From: Diphasiastrum complanatum
Lineage: Eukaryota > Streptophyta > Lycopodiopsida > Lycopodiales > Lycopodiaceae
Direction of reading: 5' to 3'
Length of the DNA stretch: 64,000 nt
Assembly (NCBI GenBank): GCA_029204225.1
Contig: CM055102.1
Span: forward strand, 50,250,426-50,314,425
The notes under the pieces are model-generated. The model had not been told where the DNA came from. It did no database searches and saw only the letters and a program-made list of their open reading frames with translations. Below, one piece after another: positions 10,985 to 61,584 of this stretch (positions within the stretch are counted from its first letter, which is position 1; each line of letters begins with the position of its first letter). Position numbers and translations under genes: made by a program.

Positions 10985-11252
10985 GATTTTCTGCTTGGGA
11001 GGATCCTTTTACTAGTTATTCTTCTTACTTACAGGTTGTGTTTGTGCTTTGCCTGTCAACAGAAACTACGGGCACTTGTTTTAGATTATCTATCTTGTTT
11101 CAGAGCCCAACTCAGGCAGAGAAGATTGGTTATCATTGTAGTATTGTCTTGCCTATCAGAGGACACTCAGATTTGTCAGTCTTGCACTGAAGCACATGCA
11201 TAAACAACCACAATCAGTCAATCATGCATGCCAAAATGTTCAACCATCAAAT
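10985..11252. other. Short spacer between LTR B and the solo LTR
   Basis: No gene or repeat family recognised. Bases 11138-11170 resemble, in reverse complement, the sequence just right of the LTR at 51978, suggesting both LTRs may have landed in copies of one older repeat. Confidence 0.3.
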
Positions 11253-12073
11253 TGTTGAATTTCACATGTGTGGATTGTCTACAACATGTACTTGTAATCT
11301 CCTAAGGTGTGTAGATGCACCAAGATGACTAGATTGAGATTCAAGATCTATCTTTGATTCTATGGCAAAAACACACTACTACATGCATTTAATCACTTCC
11401 AACTCTCACTCACACGTGTGGGAAGTGTTCCAAAAGTAGTCTAAGTAAAAACAAGTTGCTCTCCTCGGGTAGAGAGAGAAAATCATCAATAGCTCTCGGA
11501 TAGAGAGAGAAAGCTAGAAAATCACTTACACTCAAAATCCACTCAATCTCAAAATCAATTAGATCCAAATGAGAAGTACAATGATACTAATAGATCCATG
11601 AGCTACCACAATACTCAATCATGATTGGACCACACTTTTGCCACCTCTTAATCCTATTGGACCATTGATCCATTCACCTCTAGATTCTATTGGACATTTT
11701 CAAGCAAACCTCAAATTCTATTGGACCACTCATGGTTCCACCTCTAAATCCTATTGGACCTCTTAAACTTCATAAAAAAAAAACATTACACTTGTCTACA
11801 CTCTAATTGGCACAAGTTTGGCCTCCTACTCTATTTTGGCTCAATAGTGGCATTACAAGTGGAAATGGATAATTTGCCATCTATGCCAAATTTGACCCTA
11901 TCAAGATCCTACACCTAAATGCTTGACTATGAAATTCTATGAGACCCCTATATCAAACATTTTTATTTACTTTACAATTCTCCACACATGGGAACATCCT
12001 CCACACATGTGAGATTCACTTACAAACTTCTATCATAAAAAATACCAAGCTAGATTTTTGCCAATTTCTCACA
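11253..12073 (-). mobile_element. Solo LTR of the copia G family
   Basis: An 821-bp LTR in minus orientation, matching the 3' LTR of element G (51152-51978) in reverse complement throughout by eye. The plus strand begins TGTTGAATTTCACATGTG and ends TTTCTCACA. It is flanked on both sides by CAAAT (11248-11252 and 12074-12078), a perfect 5-bp target duplication. No internal sequence is present, so it arose by recombination between the two LTRs of a complete insertion. Confidence 0.9.
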
Positions 12074-12990
12074 CAAATCAGCATACAAAATCATTGAACA
12101 ATGATTGAAAGCCTACTCTAATGCTGCAAAAATGAGTTACAATCAGATCCTTACAACTAAAATAAATCTACACATACATTCCACAAAACAAAAACAATAA
12201 ATGAACTAAACTAGACAGCATTTTAGAAGTCCAAGAATCAAGAAACCAACCGGTTTTCTGATTCTTGGACATCCCAAGAACATCAAAAATAGGGTTGTAA
12301 TGGGATATGCAAGAATTACATCACAAACCCAACCTATTTAGTTTACCTGAATGCTGATTCCTACATTAATCCACAAACAAGAAATGAAATCGAATCCACT
12401 CTAAGAAAGCAGAAAAACTAATCCACTCCACTATCCACAACCACACACAAAGGATGGAAGGGCATGAACATAGGAGCATCACTCAAGAAAACTACCATAA
12501 TCAAGGAGCTTAGTGCTGTATCAAACTCGTGGAGGCTCTTCTCATTTGGACATGGAGTAGATACAATGCATAAAAAGCTCATCTTCTCAAAGAGGAAGTC
12601 TCTTAAATAAGCAAGAGAGCTCCTTAGGTGGCATCCTAGTGGCATTTCCACATTTCACAAATAACAAGTGGAATTATGCTCTCCACTAGAGGTCACCATC
12701 AAAAGGTGGCTCACTCTACTTTCTTTAAGAGGGGTCTACTTGCATTTATTACTTTGCCTAGAAATACTAGTTCCTACATGGTCATTCCATATTCTGAGAT
12801 TCACCACGAGGCTTACACAGTTCTTGCTTGTCATTACTGACAAGTATTCCTTGGCTCTCATACTCGGCTCTCAGTCTTCATTCGTCTCATCTTCTCAGAG
12901 ACCTCCTCGGTCTAAGGTGAGAGGTGCACTTGGTTAGCTCTGGTCAAGTATTTTGGAGATTCGTCAGAATCAGCCAACATTTGTGTTTTT
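12074..12990. other. Unassigned region
   Basis: No gene supported. It contains a 39-bp hairpin (12230-12268; 18-bp arms TCCAAGAATCA(A)GAAA(A)CC) and some open but featureless frames. Confidence 0.35.
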
Positions 12991-13894: not shown

Positions 13895-14576
13895 TGTTAA
13901 AAATTCACAATTCTAGCTTGACTAGTTTTGGTCATATGACTTGTAAATAGTTAGATGGTCATGATGTGGCTTGTCACACGTGCCAAATAGCATAGGATTC
14001 CATTCATAAGGATGTTCTCAAGTAGACCTAAGTGTTAGAACCTTTGGAATGAGTCCAAATTATGCTTAGATACAAGGGAGAAAAAATAGGAGCTATTTTT
14101 GGTAGTTTTTGCATTGTTGAGGGATCTCCAAGATTCCAACCCTAACTTGGTAGGGATGAAAGATCCACCAAAATTAGCACTAGGGATAGGTTTAGGGCTA
14201 CTCATACCTGCCCAAAACCGTGATGGATCATGTATATATAGGTGATGATATCTCACCAAAATCAATCAAGCAATTTCATGTTTTTTCTCTCATAATGGTG
14301 CAATTGCTCTCTATGTTCATAATTGTTTGAGTACTTGTGATTACTAATGATTATAGGATTGAATATAGGTCTTGTGTACAGTACTCAGACTGTGGGAGGC
14401 CGTACTTTCACACGTGTGAAGCCTTCTTCAAGGATTTGGGCCATTTAGTGAGGTTCAAGCATAGATTTTTGATGGATTTTGATGGTTCAACTTGTGCTAA
14501 TCTTATGAAATCATAATCTATTGTTTCCCTCATCATTTCAAGTGTTTTAGGATCCTTATTTGCTGTAATTTTTACA
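13895..14576 (+). repeat. 5' LTR of copia D
   Basis: A 682-bp LTR with TG...CA ends. A TATA box (TATATATA, about 14233-14240) precedes a TTCACACGTGTGAA palindrome (14407-14420) lying in the probable transcribed part. It is followed without gap by the primer-binding site. Confidence 0.95.
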
Positions 14577-14589
14577 TGGTATCAGAGTC
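14577..14589 (+). promoter_or_regulatory. Primer-binding site of copia D
   Basis: TGGTATCAGAGTC, one base from the usual plant tRNA-iMet complement, directly abutting the LTR. It is followed by an 800-bp leader before gag with no ORF of note. Confidence 0.9.
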
Positions 14590-15387
14590 TAAAGGCTGAA
14601 ATGAGCTAAATCCTTGGTTTTCATTCAATTTGATCACAATTTTTGATCTAAATCTTGTGTAGATTGGATCTTAGCATCTAGTATTGATTCTAGAACTCAA
14701 AGTGAGTCAAATACATTGGAGATTGATGTTGTGTGACTTCATTTTCAGGTGTTTAGGTGTCTAAAACCAGAGGCAAAGTTGAATTCAATTCACATTACCA
14801 AGATAGCAAGTTTTGCTTGCTCCAAGCATTGATTTCTAAGCGAGTTTTGGAGATGATTTCATAGAGGAGGCTTTCTAGCATTCAAGGAGAGGGAAGATCA
14901 GAGTTTTGGGGACTCTTCAAGGCTGTTCTAAGGTGTAGTAGGCACCTCCTAAAGTGATTTAGGTTCAGTCCAACCATTGCTTGACTTATGCACCAAATTA
15001 GATCAATTTTTCATCAATTTTGATCATTTTTTGCTTGTGATTGGATAGTAGATTGTGTTGCATCCTCATTAAGTTCCATTTAGATCTTTTACAAGTGATT
15101 TTGGAAGTATATTAGGTTGCTAAAATTCACTCTTGATCAGATCATTTGGAAGCTTTAATGTTCTTTATAGAAAGAGGGGCAATTCTACTAGTATTGTCTA
15201 CTTCAATCAAGCAAGTGCATTGTTTCTAGTATTCTATGATTTGATTTTGTTAGAAATCATTCTTAGATCTTTATAGGAAGTCTATTACTGATCTTTTCAG
15301 GTCCCTAAGAAGTGGGATAAGGTAGACCTTCAATCAAATCAATAGAAGTAACCTTCATTTGTGTCAAGTCCTTGATTAGGAGACTAG

Positions 15388-16137
15388 ATGGCATCTATAA
15401 ATGCATATCTTTTGGATACTAATGAAAGGCTCAACAAAACTAACTATTCCATATGGAAAGTTAGAATGGAATCCATCATGATCATTCAAGATCTGATGGA
15501 AATTGTAAATGGTAAGGAGGGTGAACCTATTCATCCTCAAGAAAAAGCCAAATACATCAAGAGGTGCAATGTTGCACTACATTGCATAAAAATGAATGTT
15601 GCAAATGAACTCTTAAGAGAGGTAGGAGATTGCACTTCAGCTCAAGATGCTTGGGAGACTTTGAAAAAGGTCTATGAATCCAAGAACCAAACTAGAATGT
15701 TAGCTTTGAAGAATCAAATCTATAGAAGCTATCAAAAGAAAGGAGAGAGTGCACATACTTTTGTCCTAAGAGTAAAGGAATGGAACAAAGAGCTAGTCTT
15801 TATAGGTGATCCTATCAAGGATGAAGAGCTTGTTCAACTCATATTGAATGGACTAAGCTTTGAATTTGACAATTTGGTTCAGGGATATGCAATTATGGGT
15901 AAGCTACCCATACTTGAAGAACTCCAAGGCACACTCATGGCCGAGGAATCAAGGAGCCAAATGCAAGAGAGGATGGATAGGCTTTCCATCCAAGGTGGAG
16001 ATGACCAAGATCTCTTCACCAAAGGCAAAGGCAAGTCCAAAGGCAAAGTATTAACATTCAAGAAGTCTACAAAGCTTGAGGACCCTCAAAGGCATCTCCA
16101 TCAACCACCAAAGTCAAGAAGGACAAATCAAAGGTGA
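15388..16137 (+). CDS. gag: Gag of copia D (DUF4219-UBN2)
   Basis: A 249-codon frame with ATG at 15388. Residues about 12-30 hold the DUF4219 motif (LNKTNYSIWKVRMES). UBN2 follows, with KMNVANELLREVGDC, AWETLKKVYESK and ELVQLILNGLS. The end (about 205-249) is Lys-rich. Gag builds the particle in which the RNA is reverse transcribed. The usual zinc knuckle is not in this frame: it begins the pol frame, which overlaps the gag stop (16135-16137). Reading the other frame upstream from pol shows a matching Lys-rich linker, so gag and pol were probably one frame before a one-base change near 16080. A programmed shift is the less likely alternative, as no clear slippery site is seen. Confidence 0.9.
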   Translation: MASINAYLLDTNERLNKTNYSIWKVRMESIMIIQDLMEIVNGKEGEPIHPQEKAKYIKRCNVALHCIKMNVANELLREVGDCTSAQDAWETLKKVYESKNQTRMLALKNQIYRSYQKKGESAHTFVLRVKEWNKELVFIGDPIKDEELVQLILNGLSFEFDNLVQGYAIMGKLPILEELQGTLMAEESRSQMQERMDRLSIQGGDDQDLFTKGKGKSKGKVLTFKKSTKLEDPQRHLHQPPKSRRTNQR

Positions 16138-19100
16138 AGTGCTACTATTGTAGCAAGATGGGGCATTATGCCTCGGAATGCTTCAAGAGGAAGCAAGATA
16201 AAAGCCAAGCCAACATGAGCAAAGAGGAGGAGGAGGAGATTTCACATGAGGACTCTCTCATGATGTCCATATTTTCTTCAACAAGCTTCAAAGGAGAAGA
16301 TCCTTGGTGGATTGACTCGGGTGCTAGTTCACACATGACTAGTAAAAGGGAGTTTTTCTCTTCTCTCTTATCTTATGATGGACCTATAAAGTCTATCTAT
16401 ACAGCAAATGATGAAGCTTGTAAGATTGAAGGAGTTGGTAGCATTCCCCTTTGCTTAGGATCTTCCAAAAAGATCAACATAGAAGGTGTTTTGTACATTC
16501 CTACAATAACAAAGAATCTACTAAGTGTTGGCCAAATGGTAGACAATGGTTTCAATGTTGACTTTGCTTCAAATGAATGTTTCATCAAGAAGAAGGGTAA
16601 GATAGTGGCTAAGGGCACTAGACTTGGCAAACTTTATAAGTTGGATGCATTTGTGGATACTAATGTTGTCATGTTGGCCGAGAAGAGCAAGATATCTACC
16701 TTTACTTTATGGCACAAAAGACTTGGACATGTCAACTCGGGTTCCATGGAGGCTATGATCAAGGAGGAGTATGCTTTAGGCCTACCAAGGTCTATTGGGA
16801 AGGAAGACAAGGTTTGTGAAGCTTGTGCCTTATCCAAGGCACATAAGAAGGTGTTTCCTAACTCCATCACAAAGTCATCTCATCCTCTTAAACTCATACA
16901 CTCGGATGTGCACATTGCTAGCACCAAATCTAATGGAGGTTCATCCATGTTTTTAACCTTCATTGATGACTACTCAAGATATTGTTGGGTGTTCTTACTT
17001 TCCTTCAAGTCTCAAGTATTTGATACTTTTGTAAAGTTCAAGTTGTTTGTGGAAAAGCATCATAATCATAGCATCAAGATTCTTAGAAGTGACAATGGTG
17101 GAGAATTCATCTCCAATGAGTTCAAGGCCTTTTGTGAGGAGGAAGGGATCAAGAAAGAGACTTCTTGTCCTTACACTCCTCAACAAAATGGAGTTGCTGA
17201 AAGAAGGAATAGAACATTATGTGAATGTTCTAAGGCTTTAAGATTAGATGCTTGTTTGCCCAAATCCTTTTGGGGTGAGTCTCTTGTATGTGCAAACTAC
17301 TTGATGAATAGGGTGTCTTGCAAAGCCATTGAAGGCAAAACTCCTTATGAGATGTTGTATGGAAAGAAACCCAATCTTAATCACTTGAAAGTTTTTGGGT
17401 GTATATGTTATGTGCATGTGCCATTGGAAACAAGAACCAAGGAGGATCCATCTTCCACAAGAGGGATCATGCTTGGATATGCAAGCTCAAGCAAGGGCTA
17501 CAAAGTCTATCTCCCATCCTTGAACAAATTTGTTGTTTCAAGGGATGTCATCTTTGATGAACATCATATGCATATGCTTGAAGAAGGCTCAAGTGCTCCA
17601 ACAATCAAGAAGAAGATGGCCGAGGAGCAAGATCTTGGTTTTGAGGAGGAGCTCATGGAGGAGCAAGCACCAAACCCACCTATCACACCAAGGAGATCTT
17701 CAAGGGCAAAAGTGGAGCCATCAAGGCTCACATATCAAGGCAAAGGACAGCAAGTTGAGAGTATCTCATCCACTTCTTATGCTTTATCTAGTTTTGAAGA
17801 ACCGTCTAATGTTGAAGATGCATTGAACTCCAAAGAATGGTATAAAGCTATGTTGGATGAGTATGATGCCTTGATTGAGAATGAAACTTGGTTGCTTGTT
17901 GAGAGACCTCAAAGGAATGTAATAGGATGCAAGTGGGTCTTCAAGCTTAAGTTGAATGCAAATGGGAGTGTTAACAAACATAAAGCAAGATTAGTTGCAA
18001 AAGGTTATGCTCAAGAGAGAGGGATAGACGATGAGGAAACTTTTGCACCCGTGGCCAAGATGGTCACAATAAGACTAATCATTGCACTTGCATCACATTT
18101 TGGATGGATTCTATGTCAAATGGATGTCTCTAATGCTTTCTTGAATGGTTTTTTGGAAGAGGATATCTATATGGAGCAGCCACAAGGGTTCATCAAGCAT
18201 GGAATGGAGAACAAAGTATGCCATCTCCAAAGAAGCATCTATGGCTTGAAGCAAGCCTCGAGATCTTGGAATTCAAGACTACATTGCTATCTTATTTCAC
18301 TTTATTTTGTTAAAAGTGAATATGATCTCACTCTTTACATTAAGTTTGATGATGTTGGTATTGTACTTTTACTCATTTATGTAGATGACATCATCATTAG
18401 TGGAAATAGTGTTGATGGTATTGAAAAAATCAAGATAGATCTATCCTTAGAGTTCAAGATGGTAGATCTAGGGTTTCTTCACTTCATCTTAGGCATAGAA
18501 GTACTTAGAAGGTCTGATTTTATCTTTATAAGTCAAGTAAACTATGCTCAAAGTCTTTTGAAGAAGTTTAAGATGGAAGTATGCAAAAGTGTTGACACAC
18601 CAATGGAGCAAGATGTAAAAGTGCCAAATGAAGATGATGAAAGATCCTTCATGGACATCACTTTGTTTAGGCAACTTATAGGTTCCTTAATGTGGATCAC
18701 TATAACTAGACCAGATCTTAGCTTTAGTGTATGTAGGTTGAGCCAATCCATGCAAAAGCCATTGAATATCCATTGGAAAAAGGCTAAGAGGATTCTAAGA
18801 TACATCTCGGGTACATTGGATTTTGGGATTCTATATAGAGGAGATGTGATTAACCTTCATGCATTTAGTGATTCAGATTTTGCAGGGGACAAGAGGGATA
18901 GGAAATCAACAAGTGCCTATTCAACTTTCATAGGAGAAGGTGTGGTTTCATGGCTTTCAAAAAAGCAAGAAACTATATCTCTATCTTCAACCGAGGCCGA
19001 GTACAAAGCTTTGACAACCACTACAAAGGAGGTACTTTGGATCAAGAGATTATTGGTGGAACTAAAGATCATGGATTCAGAGGAGGCACCAATTATCTAC

Positions 19101-19343
19101 AATGACAATATATCAGCCCAACACCTTGCGTCTAACCCAATCTTCCATGCAAGATCTAAGCACATTGAGATATGCCATCACTTTGTGAGAGAAATGGTGC
19201 AAGCCAAGGAGATTGCTTTGGAGCATGTTCCAAGCAATGAATGTGTAGCTGATCTACTTACTAAACCACTTCAAAAGACACCTTTTATGAAGTTCAGATC
19301 ATCACTTGGAGTGATTAGTAAAGCAATGATTGAACCAAGCTAG
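16134..19343 (+). CDS. pol: Pol of copia D: zinc knuckle, protease, integrase, RT, RNase H
   Basis: A 1069-codon uninterrupted frame (first codon shown is GTG; the true upstream frame is discussed under gag). Domains in order: CCHC knuckle C3-C6-H11-C16; aspartic protease with DSG at 61-63; integrase zinc site H194, H199, C228, C231; integrase core D258, D320, E356 with the classic 35-residue D-E spacing; LGY/YVDD reverse transcriptase with YVDD near residue 750; RNase H with first Asp near 910, SSTEAEY near 950 and SKHIEI near 1010. All key residues seen are present. The stop is 15 bp before the polypurine tract. The product would copy the element's RNA and integrate it. Apart from the gag junction it appears able to encode a full enzyme set. 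Confidence 0.95.
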   Translation: MKCYYCSKMGHYASECFKRKQDKSQANMSKEEEEEISHEDSLMMSIFSSTSFKGEDPWWIDSGASSHMTSKREFFSSLLSYDGPIKSIYTANDEACKIEGVGSIPLCLGSSKKINIEGVLYIPTITKNLLSVGQMVDNGFNVDFASNECFIKKKGKIVAKGTRLGKLYKLDAFVDTNVVMLAEKSKISTFTLWHKRLGHVNSGSMEAMIKEEYALGLPRSIGKEDKVCEACALSKAHKKVFPNSITKSSHPLKLIHSDVHIASTKSNGGSSMFLTFIDDYSRYCWVFLLSFKSQVFDTFVKFKLFVEKHHNHSIKILRSDNGGEFISNEFKAFCEEEGIKKETSCPYTPQQNGVAERRNRTLCECSKALRLDACLPKSFWGESLVCANYLMNRVSCKAIEGKTPYEMLYGKKPNLNHLKVFGCICYVHVPLETRTKEDPSSTRGIMLGYASSSKGYKVYLPSLNKFVVSRDVIFDEHHMHMLEEGSSAPTIKKKMAEEQDLGFEEELMEEQAPNPPITPRRSSRAKVEPSRLTYQGKGQQVESISSTSYALSSFEEPSNVEDALNSKEWYKAMLDEYDALIENETWLLVERPQRNVIGCKWVFKLKLNANGSVNKHKARLVAKGYAQERGIDDEETFAPVAKMVTIRLIIALASHFGWILCQMDVSNAFLNGFLEEDIYMEQPQGFIKHGMENKVCHLQRSIYGLKQASRSWNSRLHCYLISLYFVKSEYDLTLYIKFDDVGIVLLLIYVDDIIISGNSVDGIEKIKIDLSLEFKMVDLGFLHFILGIEVLRRSDFIFISQVNYAQSLLKKFKMEVCKSVDTPMEQDVKVPNEDDERSFMDITLFRQLIGSLMWITITRPDLSFSVCRLSQSMQKPLNIHWKKAKRILRYISGTLDFGILYRGDVINLHAFSDSDFAGDKRDRKSTSAYSTFIGEGVVSWLSKKQETISLSSTEAEYKALTTTTKEVLWIKRLLVELKIMDSEEAPIIYNDNISAQHLASNPIFHARSKHIEICHHFVREMVQAKEIALEHVPSNECVADLLTKPLQKTPFMKFRSSLGVISKAMIEPS

Positions 19344-19345
19344 AT

Positions 19346-19357
19346 AGTGAGGAGGAG
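19346..19357 (+). promoter_or_regulatory. Polypurine tract of copia D
   Basis: AGTGAGGAGGAG directly before the 3' LTR, where plus-strand DNA synthesis is primed. Confidence 0.85.
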
Positions 19358-20039
19358 TGTTAAAAATTCACAATTCTAGCTTGACTAGTTTTGGTCATAT
19401 GACTTGTAAATAGTTAGATGGTCATGATGTGGCTTGTCACACGTGCCAAATAGCATAGGATTCCATTCATAAGGATGTTCTCAAGTAGACCTAAGTGTTA
19501 GAACCTTTGGAATGAGTCCAAATTATGCTTAGATACAAGGGAGAAAAAATAGGAGCTATTTTTGGTAATTTTTGCATTGTTGAGGGATCTCCAAGATTCC
19601 AACCCTAACTTGGTAGGGATAAAAGATCCACCAAAATTAGCACTAGGGATAGGTTTAGGGCTACTCATACCTTCCCAAAACCATGATGGATCATGTATAT
19701 ATAGGTGATGATATCTCACCAAAATCAATCAAGCAATTTCATGTTTTTTCTCTCATAATGGTGCAATTGCTCTCTATGTTCATAATTGTTTGAGTACTTG
19801 TGATTACTAATGATTATAGGATTGAATGTAGGTCTGGTGTACAGTACTCAGACTGTGGGAGGCCATACTTTCACACGTGTGAAGCCTTCTTCAAGGATTT
19901 GGGCCATTTAGTGAGGTTCAAGCATAGATTTTTGATGGATTTTGATGGTTCAACTTGTGCTAATCTTATGAAATCATAATCTATTGTTTCCCTCATCATT
20001 TCAAGTGTTTTAGGATCCTTATTTGCTGTAATTTTTACA
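19358..20039 (+). repeat. 3' LTR of copia D
   Basis: 682 bp, same ends and length as the 5' copy. The seven differences are all substitutions, five of them transitions. It carries the same TATA box and CACACGTGTG palindrome (19870-19883). The duplication ATGGT follows. Confidence 0.95.
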
Positions 20040-51041: not shown

Positions 51042-51151
51042 TGGATCCCTTGGTGATCTTCACTTCTTATGCATACCAAAGGATCCACTCAAAAAGATTT
51101 ACAAACTTCTCAAGTGATCTAGTACCTTTCCAAGCTATTTTTTGAGGATGA

Positions 51152-51978
51152 GTGTGAGAAATTGGCAAAAATCTAGCTTGGTATTTTTTATGATAGAAGT
51201 TTGTAAGTGAATCTCACATGTGTGGAGGATGTTCCCACGTGTGGAGAATTGTAAAGTAAATCAAAATGTTTGATATAGGGGTCTCATAGAATTTCATAGT
51301 CAAGCATTTAGGTGTAGGATGTTGATAGGGTCAAATTTGGCATAGATGGCAAATTATCCATTTTCACTTGTAATGCCACTATTGAGCCAAAATAGAGTAG
51401 GAGGCCAAACTTGTGCCAATTAGAGTGTAGACAAGTGTAATGCTTTTGTTTGATGAAGTTTAAGAGGTCCAATAGGATTTAGAGGTGGAACCATGTGTGG
51501 TCCAATAGGAATTTGAGGTGTGCTTGAATATAGTCCAATAGAATTTAGAGGTGCATGGATCAATGGTCCAATAGGATTAAGAGGTGGCAAAGTGTGATCC
51601 AATCATAGTTAAGCATAGTGGTAGCTCATGAATCTACTAGTATCATTGTACTCCTTTTTTGGATCTAATTGATTTTGAGATTGAGTGGATTTCGAGTGTC
51701 ATTGAATTTCTAGCTTTCTCTCTCTACCCAAGAGCTCATGATGGTTTTTCTCTCTCTACCCAAGGAGAGCAGCTTGTTTTTACTTGAAATACTTTTGGAA
51801 CACTTCCCACATGTGTGAGTGAGAGTTGGAAGTGATTGAATGCATGTAGTAGTGTGTTTTTGCCATAGAATCAAAGATAGATCTTGAATCTCAATCTAGT
51901 CTTGATCTTGGTGCATCTACACACCTTAGGAGATCACAAGTACATGTGGTGGACAATCCACACGTGTGAAATTCAACA
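51152..51978 (+). repeat. 3' LTR of copia G
   Basis: 827 bp, TGTGAGAAATTGG...GTGAAATTCAACA, preceded by the purine stretch GAGGATGAG. Contains CACATGTGTG or CACACGTGTG motifs near 51216, 51231, 51807 and 51959. Direct repeats of GGTCCAATAG followed by GATTTAGAGGTG recur at about 60-bp spacing (51465-51590). Confidence 0.85.
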
Positions 51979-52960
51979 AAGAGTGACCCATCCAGATGTC
52001 CTCTGACAAGCATGACAATACTACATCGATATTCAGTCCCTTTTGCTTGATTTTGGGCTTTAAATAAAAAAGAGAAACTTAATCCAAAGCCCACCGTCTC
52101 TGCTGATAGGCAGAAGAAGAAAGAAACAAAGAAGAACTAGTTAACAGATTCTATAGGCTCTAAATCTGTAAACAATGCTTCAGCGAGTAATGTTTCAATC
52201 TGAATAAAGAATTCAAAACATTGGCCATCGTGGATCAAATTCTCTTATACCAGACCTACCATCGTCTGTCTACCATGTCATTCGTCAATATAGCGAGGTT
52301 GAAAAGATGGTTATGACAGATTTCCTGGGGAATATGCACCCGACGTTTGGCCCAATCCGCTCGCAATCCATAACGCGCAGTACATGGTGGTCGTGTTTCG
52401 TCTATGTAGTTACTGAAACCCACCGTAAGATCTGTGATGCCGAAGATATGAAGGGCCAACAACTAGAGAAGGCTCCCTGAAGCATGTCTCCACACCTCAT
52501 TAGAGTAGTTCCAAAATAAAAAAAAGACCCTTTGTAAAGATACTTTTATTTCTTTTCTCTAGTTTCGACCATCACCTGGCCCAATCAAAATGCACAAATT
52601 TGAATTCTATGTAACATAGCTCAAATAAACTGAGAAATAAAAATACATTATAGAAAACTTTGAAATTTGTGTCTAGGCAACATGGACTCATCCCATCGGT
52701 TTGCTCTTCTTGCTCGCCGACACGTGTTAATCTGCCCGACGTCAATACCTCAAGTTAAATTTACTTAACTATGCTGGTTAGTATAATGGAATTTGCTAAC
52801 CATACTAGTTACAGTTATAGAAATATAGTATGCACAGTTACTTAAAATATAGTATGCACAGTAACTGTGGCTACGGTGGCATTCACATTAGATTAAATGT
52901 GATACGAAAAATTAAAATGAAGTATCATATAAGAGAGATTTTTGGCGTCCAAGCTTTCAA
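51979..52960. other. Unassigned region left of the convergent gene pair
   Basis: A GC-richer open frame of 68 codons on the minus strand (52462-52256, reading ITDLTVGFSNYIDETRPPC) may be an exon or pseudogene remnant; family not recognised. A duplicated phrase TATAGTATGCACAGT(T)A lies near 52826 and 52850. No terminal inverted repeat was found. Confidence 0.3.
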
Positions 52961-54263
52961 AATAGCAATGGCAAGGAGACCAAAAATCTATAGTTGAGTC
53001 CGTGATTTTTTACAATGAGAAAGATGAAGCTGATAACTGGAAGCCAACAAAATATACGAAGAATTTGTGGTTGTTGTTGCATTTATCATCAAAGGGCAAT
53101 TTTTGACATACAAATCTTATTGGAAAGCAAAAATTTTAGATTTTAAGACTACTCCGGGAGGTCACTCGATATCAGAAGTTCTAGTACAACATGTACATAT
53201 GCATTCAAAAATAAAAGTGCAAGATATCAATCCTCATAATCATCGGAAATGTAACTGTAAGTATATCAAAATGTATGCACTATACTACAATCATAGGTGT
53301 TTTTTTTTTATTGATGCTCTTCAAATTACGATTTAAATGCTTCAACCTTTTTCTTCTTTCAGATTTATATCCATCATGCATAAGTGAATGAGAGCCAGCA
53401 CAATCACTTGCAGGAATATTGGACGTGATTCACTCTGATGTTGGAAAGCTACAATACAGAGGAAGAAGTCCAAAGGAACTTGTAGATTGTGGTATATATT
53501 TTTATGAATATTTATGTATGCCACAAATGGATGGAGATTTTTGCAAGCTCAAAGCAATTCCATTGCCTAGTTTTTAGAGTGATGAGTGGCCTACTCTTGA
53601 CAATATTGTTTCTGAATCTTTCAAATGCAAGCTACTCATTGATGTTAGAAATGCTATGAAGGTAAGTACGGGCTTGAAAATTGTTCACCTAAGTTGGTTT
53701 ATCTCATTGCATATATTTGTTGATTTTTTCTCAAGTGCTAGTGTTCGAAGACACCAAGTTTATTTGTTTACAAGGATTTATCAGATGAGACTTTGTCAAA
53801 TCTCATGGATCAAGGTTGGCATAGTAAAACAAATAGTGATATAGAATGAAGGATTAAAAAGTCGTCAATGATCTTTTGTTATCATGTCAAAAAACAAATG
53901 CTCAGTCTCACATTTAGCTATCAGAGATACAAAAAAATTGAAGGTACATGGCTACCACTGGATCAAGACTTTGAACTAAATGGTCACTCAAACCAAATGG
54001 AGATAACCATTATCTACAATGAAGAATATTTGACTACGGTTGAGGTGGAAGAGCATTGGAAGCTTGATTTTATTAGAGCAGAGTCATGCTATTACAAACC
54101 AATCTACCAACATATTTTACATTTATCATCACCGGAAGACTTGTAAGTACTCTATGTTTATTGCCATTTCAAAATAGTACAAAATAATTGAAAATGACAT
54201 AATTTACAATTGCACACTCACTAATATTTGTCATGTCACAGATGCGAAAAAGATAGGAGCTGA
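52960..54263 (+). pseudogene. Spliced gene relic of unknown function, convergent with the H3-Ulp1 gene
   Basis: Four exon-like blocks have consistent phases: exon a to 53256 (donor GTAAGT, phase 1), exon b 53363-53661 (acceptor TTTCAG, donor GTAAGT, phase 0), exon c 53742-54142 (acceptor GTGCTAG, donor GTAAGT, phase 2) and exon d 54242-54263 (acceptor GTCACAG) ending in TGA. The protein has aromatic-rich stretches such as YKSYWKAKILDFKTT, DVIHSDVGKLQYRGRSPKE, VDCGIYFYEYLCMPQMDG, LSDETLSNLMDQGW and EHWKLDFIRAESCYYKPIY. I do not recognise the family. Three in-frame stops (two in exon b, one in exon c) and a frame change near 53055 show decay. Its stop lies 248 bp from the end of the gene on the other strand. 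Confidence 0.55.
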
Positions 54264-54511: not shown

Positions 54512-56242
54512 CTAATCTTTATATAATATAATAACATCATCCTTAACACCATCATCAACAATGGAAGGCTGAAGCCTTGCCCTCGCCAGTATGCTTAGGA
54601 TAATTTCTTGTCTAAATTTGTACACCTGGCTTGATGTGTATTCAGGAAGTGTAAACTGCAAGATAGAACATTCATCTATTAGTAACGGCTAAAAAAATCA
54701 ACAGAATGAAAAACTAATCACGAATCTAAAACCAAGAATAAACAGAATTACCTTTGAAATATCAACATCCTCCTGAAGGTTGAACCACTCAAAAAATAAC
54801 TTTGCATTATATAAAGTGTACCACCCATAGCTGAATGAATCATTTTGCTGGGGTGACTGCAAAAAAATTCAGCACACAAAAAATGAATTAAGAAACATAA
54901 TGAATTAGAATGAAACATATACATTAGAATACAGATTTCAAAATGTTGTTAAGAAAGACAGAATTTACCTCCAAATTGACGATCTGCCAGTCAACTGATT
55001 GGGAAACATCTGCTGGAATATATTTACTTAAATATGACAAGTACATATCTACATCCTTATGCGTATTGCTAGCCGAGTTCATCTTGGCACAAAATACTTT
55101 AACAGTATTGTCTATAGATCTTTTAATAGAGATCAGGTTTAAACTCCAATGCTCACTACAAAATAAGATAGAGAGTCCATTAGCTGCAATTCTAAAAACT
55201 ATTTCCATTTATAATGCCAATGATAAAGCTTTAAATAGCAAGAAGCATTTAACATATCTTACTTGGTATGATAAGGCACAAGCAGGTATTTTGTTGCTAG
55301 TGTGAATCCACTAGTCAAACACTATGACAAAGTGTCGTTATTTTCCTTGAAGGCCTAAAGCAAAAAGTTACTTAGCACCAACAATTTATTGGATGAATCT
55401 CTTGCAATGTCATATTGCGAGAGTGTAATCCCAGACTCCAGCACATGATCACTGATAGAAGCTCGTCTATTTTTGAGATCCAAACAATTAATAACTCTAT
55501 AGTTTATATTGAAGTCAAGCTCCTCTAATCTAAAACAAAATGGAACTCCAATTCTATCTACAACATCGGCTATGTCACTCTCAAATTTAAGATAATCATC
55601 CAAATCTATATATGTATAAAAATTTAAACAAGGAGGAGGAGGTGAATGAGCAGTATCTACATGAATAGTAGGATTATCCAAAATGGATGTAGCTATATTT
55701 ACAATCGTATCTAGTGCAACAATATCTACATTATCAATGGGGTTAGGTTGAGGAAAATCTGTGCTATTGGCCCTCCTAACTTTCTTTGGGGCTCTCTTGG
55801 GGGCTGGCTGCTTCCTAGGCCGCTTGGTAGGGAGGTTTGTCCTATCTAATGGATTAGGTCTGGGAGCTGCCGGCTGAGACATGTGTAACTTGGAATATCT
55901 TTCCCGCATCCTCATCAATAGTTGAAAATCCTTAGGCATAATGGCATGTCTAGCTAGCAAAAATGAATCTTAAGGAAAAAGGCTCATATAGTCCTTAGTA
56001 GCCTCATGAAGGCACTGAAGAGCCGAGGGAGTGAATCTGACAAAATGACCAAGATCATTCCTAGTAATGTGGCAGACAACATGGTAGAATGGAGCTCTCT
56101 GAATCAGCAGATTGGTTGATCTCTGATACTTACAAATATCAAAGAGCCATCTAGTTCGAACGGGAGGGGTAATGGCCACGGTAGGGGCTGAGGATGCACC
56201 AGCAGAGAAGAATTCCCTCTTTATCTGTTTTCTCCTCTCCAT
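54512..56242 (-). pseudogene. Histone H3-like fold fused to a Ulp1-like (C48) peptidase domain, spliced
   Basis: Exons on the minus strand: 56242-55263, 55155-54969, 54856-54752, 54655-54512. All junctions are GT-AG and phases agree (471 codons plus stop). ATG at 56242 follows an in-frame upstream stop. Residues 32-115 follow histone H3: CKYQRSTNLLIQRAPF (alpha-N/alpha-1), RFTPSALQCLHEATKDY (alpha-2) and AIMPKDFQLLMRMRER (alpha-3). A linker rich in Pro, Lys and Arg follows (about 122-165), then an acidic stretch. The C-terminal 180 residues fit Ulp1: YLLVPYHTNEHWSL with His329 formed across intron 1, SPQQNDSFSYG with Gln393 six residues before Tyr399, where Ulp1 has its catalytic Cys, and YKFRQEIIL. 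In-frame stops at codons 91, 296 and 307 mark decay. It may be a transposon gene that captured a histone, or a host fusion gene. Confidence 0.68.
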
Positions 56243-56254
56243 AGAGGTATTTTG

Positions 56255-57065
56255 AGGGATATCGCACTTGTGCGTGATCAGCAAGATAGGAAGGGGAGGG
56301 GTCCAAAGCGTTCATAGAGGAGCAATATGTACGCAAATTTTGTACGGTATATCGGACTTTACGAGGGAAGTGTAAGTGAGATCAGTCAATATAGAATAGA
56401 GGCGCACAAGTGCAATATGTGGAGACACGTATGCGGGGATATCGGACCTGTGCGTGGGGAAGGCAGTATGTAGAATAGCAAATAAGAAGATGGCGCACAA
56501 GTGCGATATGCGGAGGATAAAAAAAGTGAATATATCGCGGTACACACGTGCGAAAGAACGTCTTGTCGCACGTGCGAACTATCAAATCGTATAAAATTGA
56601 CAAGTGGTGATTGTCCCCCAATGATCTGGTGACACATGTCAAGGTGTCATCTCTCACGTGTGCGATTGTACGTACAAATAGAAAAATGACACTTGTTGTC
56701 CATCCAACCAATGAACACCAGACACGTGTCCTGATGTCCTTTCACACATGTCCAACTGTCACATCACACGTGCCAAAGCGTGCGAACGAATTGGGAGCCA
56801 ACACGTGTCTGTTGACCCGTTGACTACATGTGTGAAAAAACTCCCTATAAAAGACACGCAACCCGATTAATTTTTTTTTCCTCGAATTTCATGGCATATC
56901 ACTCTTGTGCGCGCACTTTGTGTTGCCTGTTATTTTTTGATCTTTACCTGCGCATAAGTGCGATATCCCGATTCTATATGTCGTACATATCCCTCTTGTG
57001 CACGCTCTTTACAATTTCTTTTTTCATATCATCTCCCTCGCGCACAGGGGCGATATCTATCGTAG
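56255..57065. repeat. Iterated GCGCACAAGTGCGATAT-type motifs upstream of the H3-Ulp1 gene
   Basis: About eight copies in both orientations, for example ATATCGCACTTGTGCG (56259), GCGCACAAGTGCAATAT (56402), GCGCACAAGTGCGATAT (56490), GCGCATAAGTGCGATAT (56950) and GCGCACAGGGGCGATAT (57040). The core CGCACAAGTGCG is itself near-palindromic. The middle section (56530-56830) instead holds ACACGTG motifs. The copy at 56259 lies within 20 bp of the proposed start codon. Confidence 0.65.
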
Positions 57066-57149
57066 TACCATGGCCTCATCCTCAAAATCTACCCGCGATT
57101 CCAGCCTAAGTGCATTTCTTATTGAATTTGGGACACAATAACATATCGC

Positions 57150-57480
57150 GCAAATTCCGACGTATGTTCGAAAATTTCATAATCTATCGCAATTCGACAC
57201 GTCGAAATACAACATCTCGGTAAAAAATCCGAGGCGGCAACCAATTTTTGCAAGGCACGTTGGAATATGACATGTCAGATTCCGACATTCAAACGTGGAT
57301 ATGACCTGGCATGGTTTTTCAAAAAAAAAAAATACGTGTAACCTGACGTACGTCGGATTTTGACGTCCACGTCGGCAATCTGAAAGTCTGTCCATGGCAT
57401 CTGGGACTTGTCGTCCGGGCCTGAATGGGCACGAACGTCGGATTCCGACGTATTTTGAAGTCATCGGATTCCGACATCTG
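57150..57480. repeat. Iterated TCGGATTCCGACGT-type palindromic motifs
   Basis: About six copies or half-copies: ATTCCGACGTATG (57160), AGATTCCGACATTC (57272), ACGTCGGATTTTGACGT (57345), ACGTCGGATTCCGACGT (57440) and ATCGGATTCCGACATC (57465). The core CGGATTCCG is close to palindromic. It adjoins the previous motif field, further upstream of the H3-Ulp1 gene. Confidence 0.6.
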
Positions 57481-61311: not shown

Positions 61312-61584
61312 CTAGCCAATGATGATGATTATTGTTTTCTCTCTCCTCTTAGAGTTACTTGGATTTTTTCTTTCTAGTCATGCTCTTTCTTATAATCATG
61401 ACCAAAATGTTGATCTTGGAATTAAATTTAGTGTTCGACAAAATATTTATCAAAGTGTCGAACACTAAATTTAATTCCAAGATCAACATTTTGGTCATGA
61501 TTATAGGAAAGAGCATGACTAGAAAGAAAAAATCCAAGTAACTCTAAGAGGAGAAAGAAAACAATAATCATCATCATTGGCTAG
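61312..61584. repeat. Near-perfect long hairpin (129-nt arms, 15-nt loop)
   Basis: Arms 61312-61440 and 61456-61584 are reverse complements with only two internal mismatches by my reading; the spacer is AAATATTTATCAAAG. The outer end reads CTAGCCAATGATGATG. Both strands therefore show nearly the same small open frame. Could be a fold-back MITE inserted in the TA tract or a hairpin-RNA locus. No clear target duplication. Confidence 0.85.

Follow-up and report, generated by a model that had tools for sequence, protein, structure and literature searches.

A terminal-inverted-repeat transposon gene that joins a histone H3 fold to a Ulp1-type domain

Transposons are already known to carry Ulp1-type (C48) peptidase domains and to encode enzymes that act on chromatin. 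VANDAL elements are Mutator-like transposons without terminal inverted repeats (TIRs), and KIU genes are VANC genes with Ulp1. As described in the passages compared, silencing of VANDAL transposons is lifted by VANC proteins, which bind arrays of short motifs in them (PMC5735166, PMC10398659); some VANDALs carry Ulp1, and plants frequently show gene capture (PMC13317346, a review whose main text does not contain the word 'histone'). A C48 domain also occurs in CACTA-ULP and MULE-ULP, cut-and-paste elements of grapevine, melon and rice, and 'histone' is again absent from the main text of the paper on them (PMC2528002). In Ginger1, which bears Ulp1 or OTU domains, excerpts of PMC2836005 place the Ulp1 domain in a fusion with a Gypsy-integrase-like transposase. 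Chromatin-modifying cargo thought to aid escape from silencing is described for the fungal TET/JBP transposons in the relevant part of PMC12730594, and HarbingerS elements with a SET domain are known to us from a title cited there. In both of these cases the cargo is an enzyme and not a histone, and hosts and transposases are different from those described below. A full-text literature search, mostly of papers outside subscription, returned no report of a histone-carrying transposon or of an H3-Ulp1 fusion, and we know of no transposon-encoded core histone.

The gene described here belongs to a TIR transposon and encodes an H3-like tail start, an H3 fold, a linker rich in Lys, Arg and Pro, and a Ulp1-type domain. 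It was found in a 64,000-nucleotide stretch of the Diphasiastrum complanatum genome (C11:50250426-50314425, hereafter the window), where it occupies positions 54512-56242 on the minus strand. Its four exons of 980, 187, 105 and 144 nt make up 472 codons including the stop, and the introns of 107, 112 and 96 nt are all GT-AG, with phases 2, 0 and 0 as derived from exon lengths. Exon 1 (55263-56242) runs from the start ATG through tail, H3 fold and basic linker to the lead-in of the C48 match; exon 2 (54969-55155) holds, within NEHW, the His that we take to be catalytic; exon 3 (54752-54856) encodes PQQND and, in the window copy, a Tyr at the Cys position; exon 4 (54512-54655) ends with the stop codon. 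This agrees with an earlier note, made from the letters of the window, which had proposed the same start and end, four exons with three GT-AG introns in consistent phase, and three premature in-frame stops. The latter are a TAA ending at 55970 and TAGs ending at 55355 and 55322, all inside exon 1. A stop-free frame of 204 codons begins where the H3 fold ends, spans the linker and reaches the region ahead of the C48 match; since none of 2000 first-order Markov sequences of the same composition contained a frame of at least 204 codons, a chance open frame was rejected.

Profile searches of the stop-masked protein confirmed the fusion that the earlier note had read from the sequence. The Histone family PF00125 matched residues 29-113 (55904-56158, minus strand) with 4e-9 and 37.2 bits against a curated Pfam cut-off of 26.4 bits, and Peptidase_C48 PF02902 matched residues 316-435 (54623-55297, minus strand, spanning introns) with 3.4e-7 and 30.8 bits against a cut-off of 20.7 bits. 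In the PDB, histone H3 was found with 2e-11. As the fusion recurs in other copies, two unrelated pseudogenes lying side by side were also rejected. What the window preserves is a decayed version of a gene carried by a DNA transposon.

Relatives were sought in the same genome (1.745 Gb, 5,176 contigs). A histone family search yielded 6,325 first-look candidates; 150 of them underwent scoring, and 153 matches were reported. The best 13 scored 163.7-165 bits, and the eight of these that were examined are canonical H3; the remaining matches among those listed scored about 83-110 bits, many of them with long open frames. Twenty loci were picked for long frames and good score and then split into two families: seven carry the H3-Ulp1 fusion (Fam1) and 13 an unfused H3 (Fam2). 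Hence the two domains are not always separate genes, as Fam1 demonstrates, even though the related Fam2 does carry H3 by itself. With the window included, four of eight aligned Fam1 copies (window, E018, E014 and E017) have all three introns, GT-AG and of nearly equal length. Seven of the eight are broken by stops, frameshifts, insertions or deletions. The exception is E018 (L018, gene 2929 to about 4658), with introns of 107, 111 and 99 nt and no premature stop, whose frame ends two codons short of the aligned end of the window gene. The predicted intact relative thus exists, in an element with perfect TIRs. Its protein matches PF00125 (1e-27, 97.3 bits) and PF02902 (1.1e-10, 42.2 bits) in one spliced frame, and in the PDB finds H3 at 1.3e-22 and Ulp1-type proteases at about 1e-3; H3 is the best PDB match of the window and intact copies alike. 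In viral and prokaryote contigs the search for relatives gave pattern matches only, none of them confirmed by tblastn.

Fam1 homology stops sharply at ...TCTAATG in five loci and in the window, the six sequences that reach this end; in the window the stop lies at position 52498, and 52498-52533 is a degenerate copy of the right TIR, CATTAGAGGAGTTCTCAATATCAAAAAGACCCTTT, recovered by gapped alignment. The intact gene lies inside an element of 8,681 bp (L029 7990 to L018 6670) bounded by identical 35-bp TIRs, CATTAGAGGAGTTCTCAATATCAAAAAGACCCTTT. A second element, E028, has both ends (one and three mismatches) and contains about 5 kb of inserted sequence. Genome-wide, the TIR matches at 968 + 1019 = 1,987 sites with up to two mismatches, while the reversed control pattern matches at none. 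The guess that the gene belongs to a transposon was therefore correct, and this is almost certainly a multi-copy TIR DNA transposon. Only its right part lies in the window, between 52498 and about 57133, the remainder being absent or too diverged, and a 14-bp TIR scan of the window by itself gave no result. Among the exact TIR matches listed for contig C1, 41 of 80 are clustered at about 65.1-66.7 and 95.0-100.7 Mb, in all about 7 Mb of 101.6 Mb, stretches that could be centromeric or other heterochromatin. Six pairs of ends were compared for target-site repeats (E018, E028 and four pairs matched by distance alone): one pair shares 3 bp and five share none. The pair L044/L045 was left out of this count as a large palindrome; its two TIRs lie 32 kb apart with flanks that mirror each other, which represents either a large palindrome or an assembly artefact.

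The intact element contains, in order, a probable transposase gene (plus strand, about 533-2455), gene X (minus strand, about 4165-2595), the H3-Ulp1 gene (plus strand, 4940 to about 6670) and gene B (minus strand, about 8318-6997). Pieces of the probable transposase occur in the expected orientation at five of the seven Fam1 loci and are partly reversed near a sixth. By eye, this candidate displays D, D and E motifs (LDESEI or LDEAEI, GDLK or ADLK, GMEKSH). Pfam searches with it and with gene B returned nothing above cut-off, and a PDB search with gene B gave no match. In the window, a decayed, spliced gene B convergent with the H3-Ulp1 gene was located at 53041-54074 on the plus strand (matches 53041-53258, 53362-53574, 53572-53661 and 53745-54074; 73-85% identity to the pieces of the intact element by tblastn). 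Tblastn found no gene X in the window, and DNA homology to the other copies stops at 57133; a weak, possible start of this divergent neighbour, read by eye, lies at 57067-57138 on the plus strand (MASSSSKSTRDSS.. compared with MASSSSSSRESD.. in the intact element).

The element is similar to VANDAL/VANC in being a plant DNA transposon with accessory genes, a Ulp1 domain, motif arrays by the genes and a proposed escape from silencing. It differs in its perfect 35-bp TIRs and in a transposase without Pfam match. According to the passages compared, DUF1985 and DUF287 are VANC domains (PMC5735166), and no histone fold is mentioned there for VANC. In the gene, the linker and the other frames scanned, Pfam matched neither these two domains nor a Mutator-type transposase, and VANDAL/VANC membership was rejected on these findings together with the perfect TIRs. 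Ginger1 shares a Ulp1 domain in a transposon protein, but in the present element this domain is fused to the H3 fold and stands apart from the transposase. CACTA (EnSpm) elements have CACTA termini and a 3-bp target-site duplication. Since the TIR starts CATTAGAG, no Pfam transposase matched and a 3-bp repeat occurs in only one of the six end pairs, CACTA membership was rejected as well.

In front of the H3-Ulp1 gene, at 56258-57057, lies an array of the near-palindrome GATATCGCACTTGTGCG in both orientations. It comprises seven matches with up to three mismatches compared with 0.06 expected, and 11 of the 12 window matches with up to four mismatches fall into this interval. The array recurs at the same place in five other Fam1 loci scanned (of seven), with six or seven matches each at up to four mismatches. 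It may be a binding site for an element-encoded protein, and resembles the short motifs bound by VANC21 in non-coding parts of VANDAL21, as the compared passages of PMC5735166 describe them. A second array, of the palindrome ACGTCGGATTCCGACGT (57272-57477, six matches compared with 0.01 expected), is missing from the five other loci scanned; it was dropped as a part of the element and may belong to another repeat.

The 13 Fam2 loci (L009-L013, L016, L019-L023, L025 and L026) encode a protein with the tail start MSEEMARTKQTARD, a long Gln/Pro-rich insert and a C-terminal H3 fold. The candidate transposase gene is common to both families, with Fam2 homologues at seven of the 13 loci (38-57% identity), and gene B has homologues at 12 of 13 (27-46% identity). 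In the 10 kb examined per locus, neither a C48 domain nor gene X was matched. The H3 folds of the two families have the stretches LIPRAPF and FEDSFL in common, and each is about 54% identical to canonical H3; a joint tree is compatible with one capture or with more. These comparisons indicate that Fam1 and Fam2 are related transposon families that have both retained H3.

The tails deviate from canonical H3 at position 9, the site of the K9 silencing mark. Canonical H3 of the same genome starts ARTKQTARK and Fam1 starts MDRRKQTRRD. Position 9 is Asp in six, Gly in one and Glu in one (the window) of the eight Fam1 copies, and Asp in 11 and Gly in two of the 13 Fam2 loci, the latter read in an alignment of DNA made without prescribing any residue there. 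K4 is thus present in all 21 tails and K9 in none. In six of the eight Fam1 copies K4 is the sole lysine ahead of the fold; a stop codon occupies position 2 in one Fam2 copy. As the 13 Fam2 copies are close relatives, their shared tail represents one or a few conserved states and not 13 independent events.

Between Fam1 subfamilies the H3 fold is under purifying selection, with dN/dS of about 0.1 (0.08-0.14 in four comparisons, at dS 0.45-0.55); the same comparisons gave 0.45-0.59 for the linker and 0.40-0.59 for the region reaching into the C48 match. For the window copy, whose H3 comparisons have dS above 1 and are saturated for E027, the respective values for H3, linker and region into C48 are 0.13, 0.39 and 0.18 against E018, and 0.09, 0.50 and 0.22 against E027. 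Constraint is weaker in close Fam1 pairs (exon 1 0.63-0.86, H3 0.22-0.53, linker above 1 in three of three pairs), and the Fam2 H3 folds have a pooled pN/pS of 0.45 over 13 copies. Because all loci of both families other than the window copy were picked by histone score and open frame, the sample is biased to conserved H3. The synonymous divergence of E018 and E027 is uneven (0.45 in H3, 0.08 in the region into C48), so that these copies may be recombinant. The window H3 is identical to canonical H3 at 19 of 31 family-invariant sites vs two of 12 variable sites. The mean BLOSUM score of its replaced residues is the same as in a neutral simulation (1035 of 2000 runs at or above), and at most one stop appeared in 246 of 2000 runs of the neutral simulation of this fold.

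The fold possesses the alpha-N motif and the histone fold of canonical H3 and CENH3; it differs from canonical H3 in about half of the fold residues (48 of 89 identical), in a tail almost without lysine and in the long C-terminal extension. Loop 1 is longer by one residue than in canonical H3. Four residues of loop 2 are deleted in the window copy and in none of the five other exon-1 copies aligned, and the intact copy reads KRVTIMPKD here; a general lack of loop 2 was thus dropped, the deletion being confined to one of six. In comparison with the 48 of 89 for canonical H3, identities were 43 of 90 for Arabidopsis CENH3, 41 of 90 for human CENP-A and 42 of 90 for yeast Cse4. With the fold no nearer to these three CENH3 proteins than to canonical H3, an origin from CENH3 was rejected, and nothing points to the action on centromeres that the earlier note had suggested. 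Single-sequence AlphaFold prediction on 135 residues gave no usable model (pLDDT 42).

The PF02902 match covers the later part of the profile only (positions 81-204 of 217 in the intact copy). C48 peptidases have a catalytic His-Asp-Cys triad together with a Gln. The intact copy has the His (NDHW), Cys (FNCGW) and Gln; in the window copy a Tyr takes the place of the Cys. None of the four readable copies (window, E018, E017 and E027) has the usual catalytic Asp at the aligned place, and the Ulp1 domain may therefore not be an active protease.

We consider the H3-Ulp1 protein best explained as an H3 that the transposon encodes, resistant to silencing and bearing a SUMO-protease-like arm, which serves against silencing, a reading to which we assign a probability of roughly 55%; that the H3-Ulp1 protein itself is an anti-silencing factor appears to us an even bet. 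Action on nucleosomes is plausible, given the purifying selection on the fold and a tail with K4 and without K9. The protein would enter or contact the nucleosomes of the element, its H3 having K4 but Asp, Gly or Glu instead of a methylatable K9. Its Ulp1-like arm may act on nearby SUMO-dependent silencing proteins, removing SUMO if the arm is active, and the palindromic array may bind an element-encoded protein and so confine the effect to the element; this mode of work would be VANC-like without membership in VANC. Weighing against this explanation are the weaker constraint in close Fam1 pairs, the pooled pN/pS of Fam2, the neutral simulation of the window H3, the Asp missing from the Ulp1 domain and the five end pairs that share no target-site repeat. 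Non-CG methylation is guided by CMT2 and CMT3 to H3K9-methylated regions in Arabidopsis, as stated in the compared part of PMC10398659. As non-CG methylation follows H3K9 methylation, an H3 lacking K9 would be a direct way to break this loop. In its most specific form, the proposal is a selfish histone: a K4-retaining, K9-less H3 of a plant transposon group's own, in one branch with a SUMO-protease-like arm, which would be wrapped on element DNA, guided by the array, and hide the element from the silencing loop. We advance this version tentatively and hold it to be somewhat less than probable.

Transposon-borne enzymes and DNA-binding proteins that counter silencing are known. Cargo in the form of a core histone would represent another strategy, in which the substrate of silencing is altered and the mark is not removed. 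If true, the chromatin of the element could not take the K9 mark and would be hidden from the silencing loop of the host. It would then be testable whether a dedicated H3 that lacks K9 suffices to keep a single DNA family active, and also what the common, unexplained Ulp1 domains of plant transposons do.

Other roles can be envisaged for the protein. The H3 fold might direct insertion by bringing the excised element, or the transposase, to chromatin of a particular kind, with the Ulp1-like arm aiding strand transfer or repair. H3 and transposase do travel together in one element in two families, TIR copies are clustered on contig C1, and a role of Ulp1 in transposition has been proposed (PMC2836005, in the part compared). 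The H3 gene is, however, separate from the transposase gene, and the clustering could also reflect local hopping, nested repeats or poor recombination; such targeting seems unlikely to us. The protein might instead mimic a histone while staying outside nucleosomes, and weaken silencing throughout the genome by competing for H4, for H3 chaperones or for readers of K4. The similarity of the tail start to H3 residues 1-8 in both families and the match of about half of the fold residues to canonical H3 would fit such a decoy. Against it, R69, R83, K115, R116 and T118, which we take to be contacts to nucleosomal DNA, are kept in the intact copy (R49, R63 and R72, to which we ascribe the same role, are not), and we regard it as improbable.

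A further alternative is that a host H3 and a Ulp1 fragment were captured and carried along with no function, as in many Pack-type elements. Broken genes in seven of the eight copies read, the weak constraint in close pairs and the frequency of gene capture in plants (PMC13317346, as excerpted) are all consistent with this. It is difficult to reconcile with an H3 dN/dS of about 0.1 between subfamilies and of 0.13 against the window copy, with the retention of H3 in two diverged transposon families and with the existence of an intact, spliced copy; we give it very little credence.

Further repeats were observed in the window. Positions 61312-61584 form an inverted repeat with 129-nt arms, 98% complementary, around a 15-nt spacer, a hairpin or MITE-like element. 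An inverted repeat of about 850 bp, in pieces 88-96% alike, is located at 11252-12098 and 51128-51979, with a weaker match (70%) reaching 52122; its two parts are perhaps solo LTRs. At 13895-19657, a Copia-like element with 300-nt end repeats 99% alike is nested in a Gypsy-like element (types assigned by eye), and as its frame is open for 1087 codons, it is probably a young insertion.
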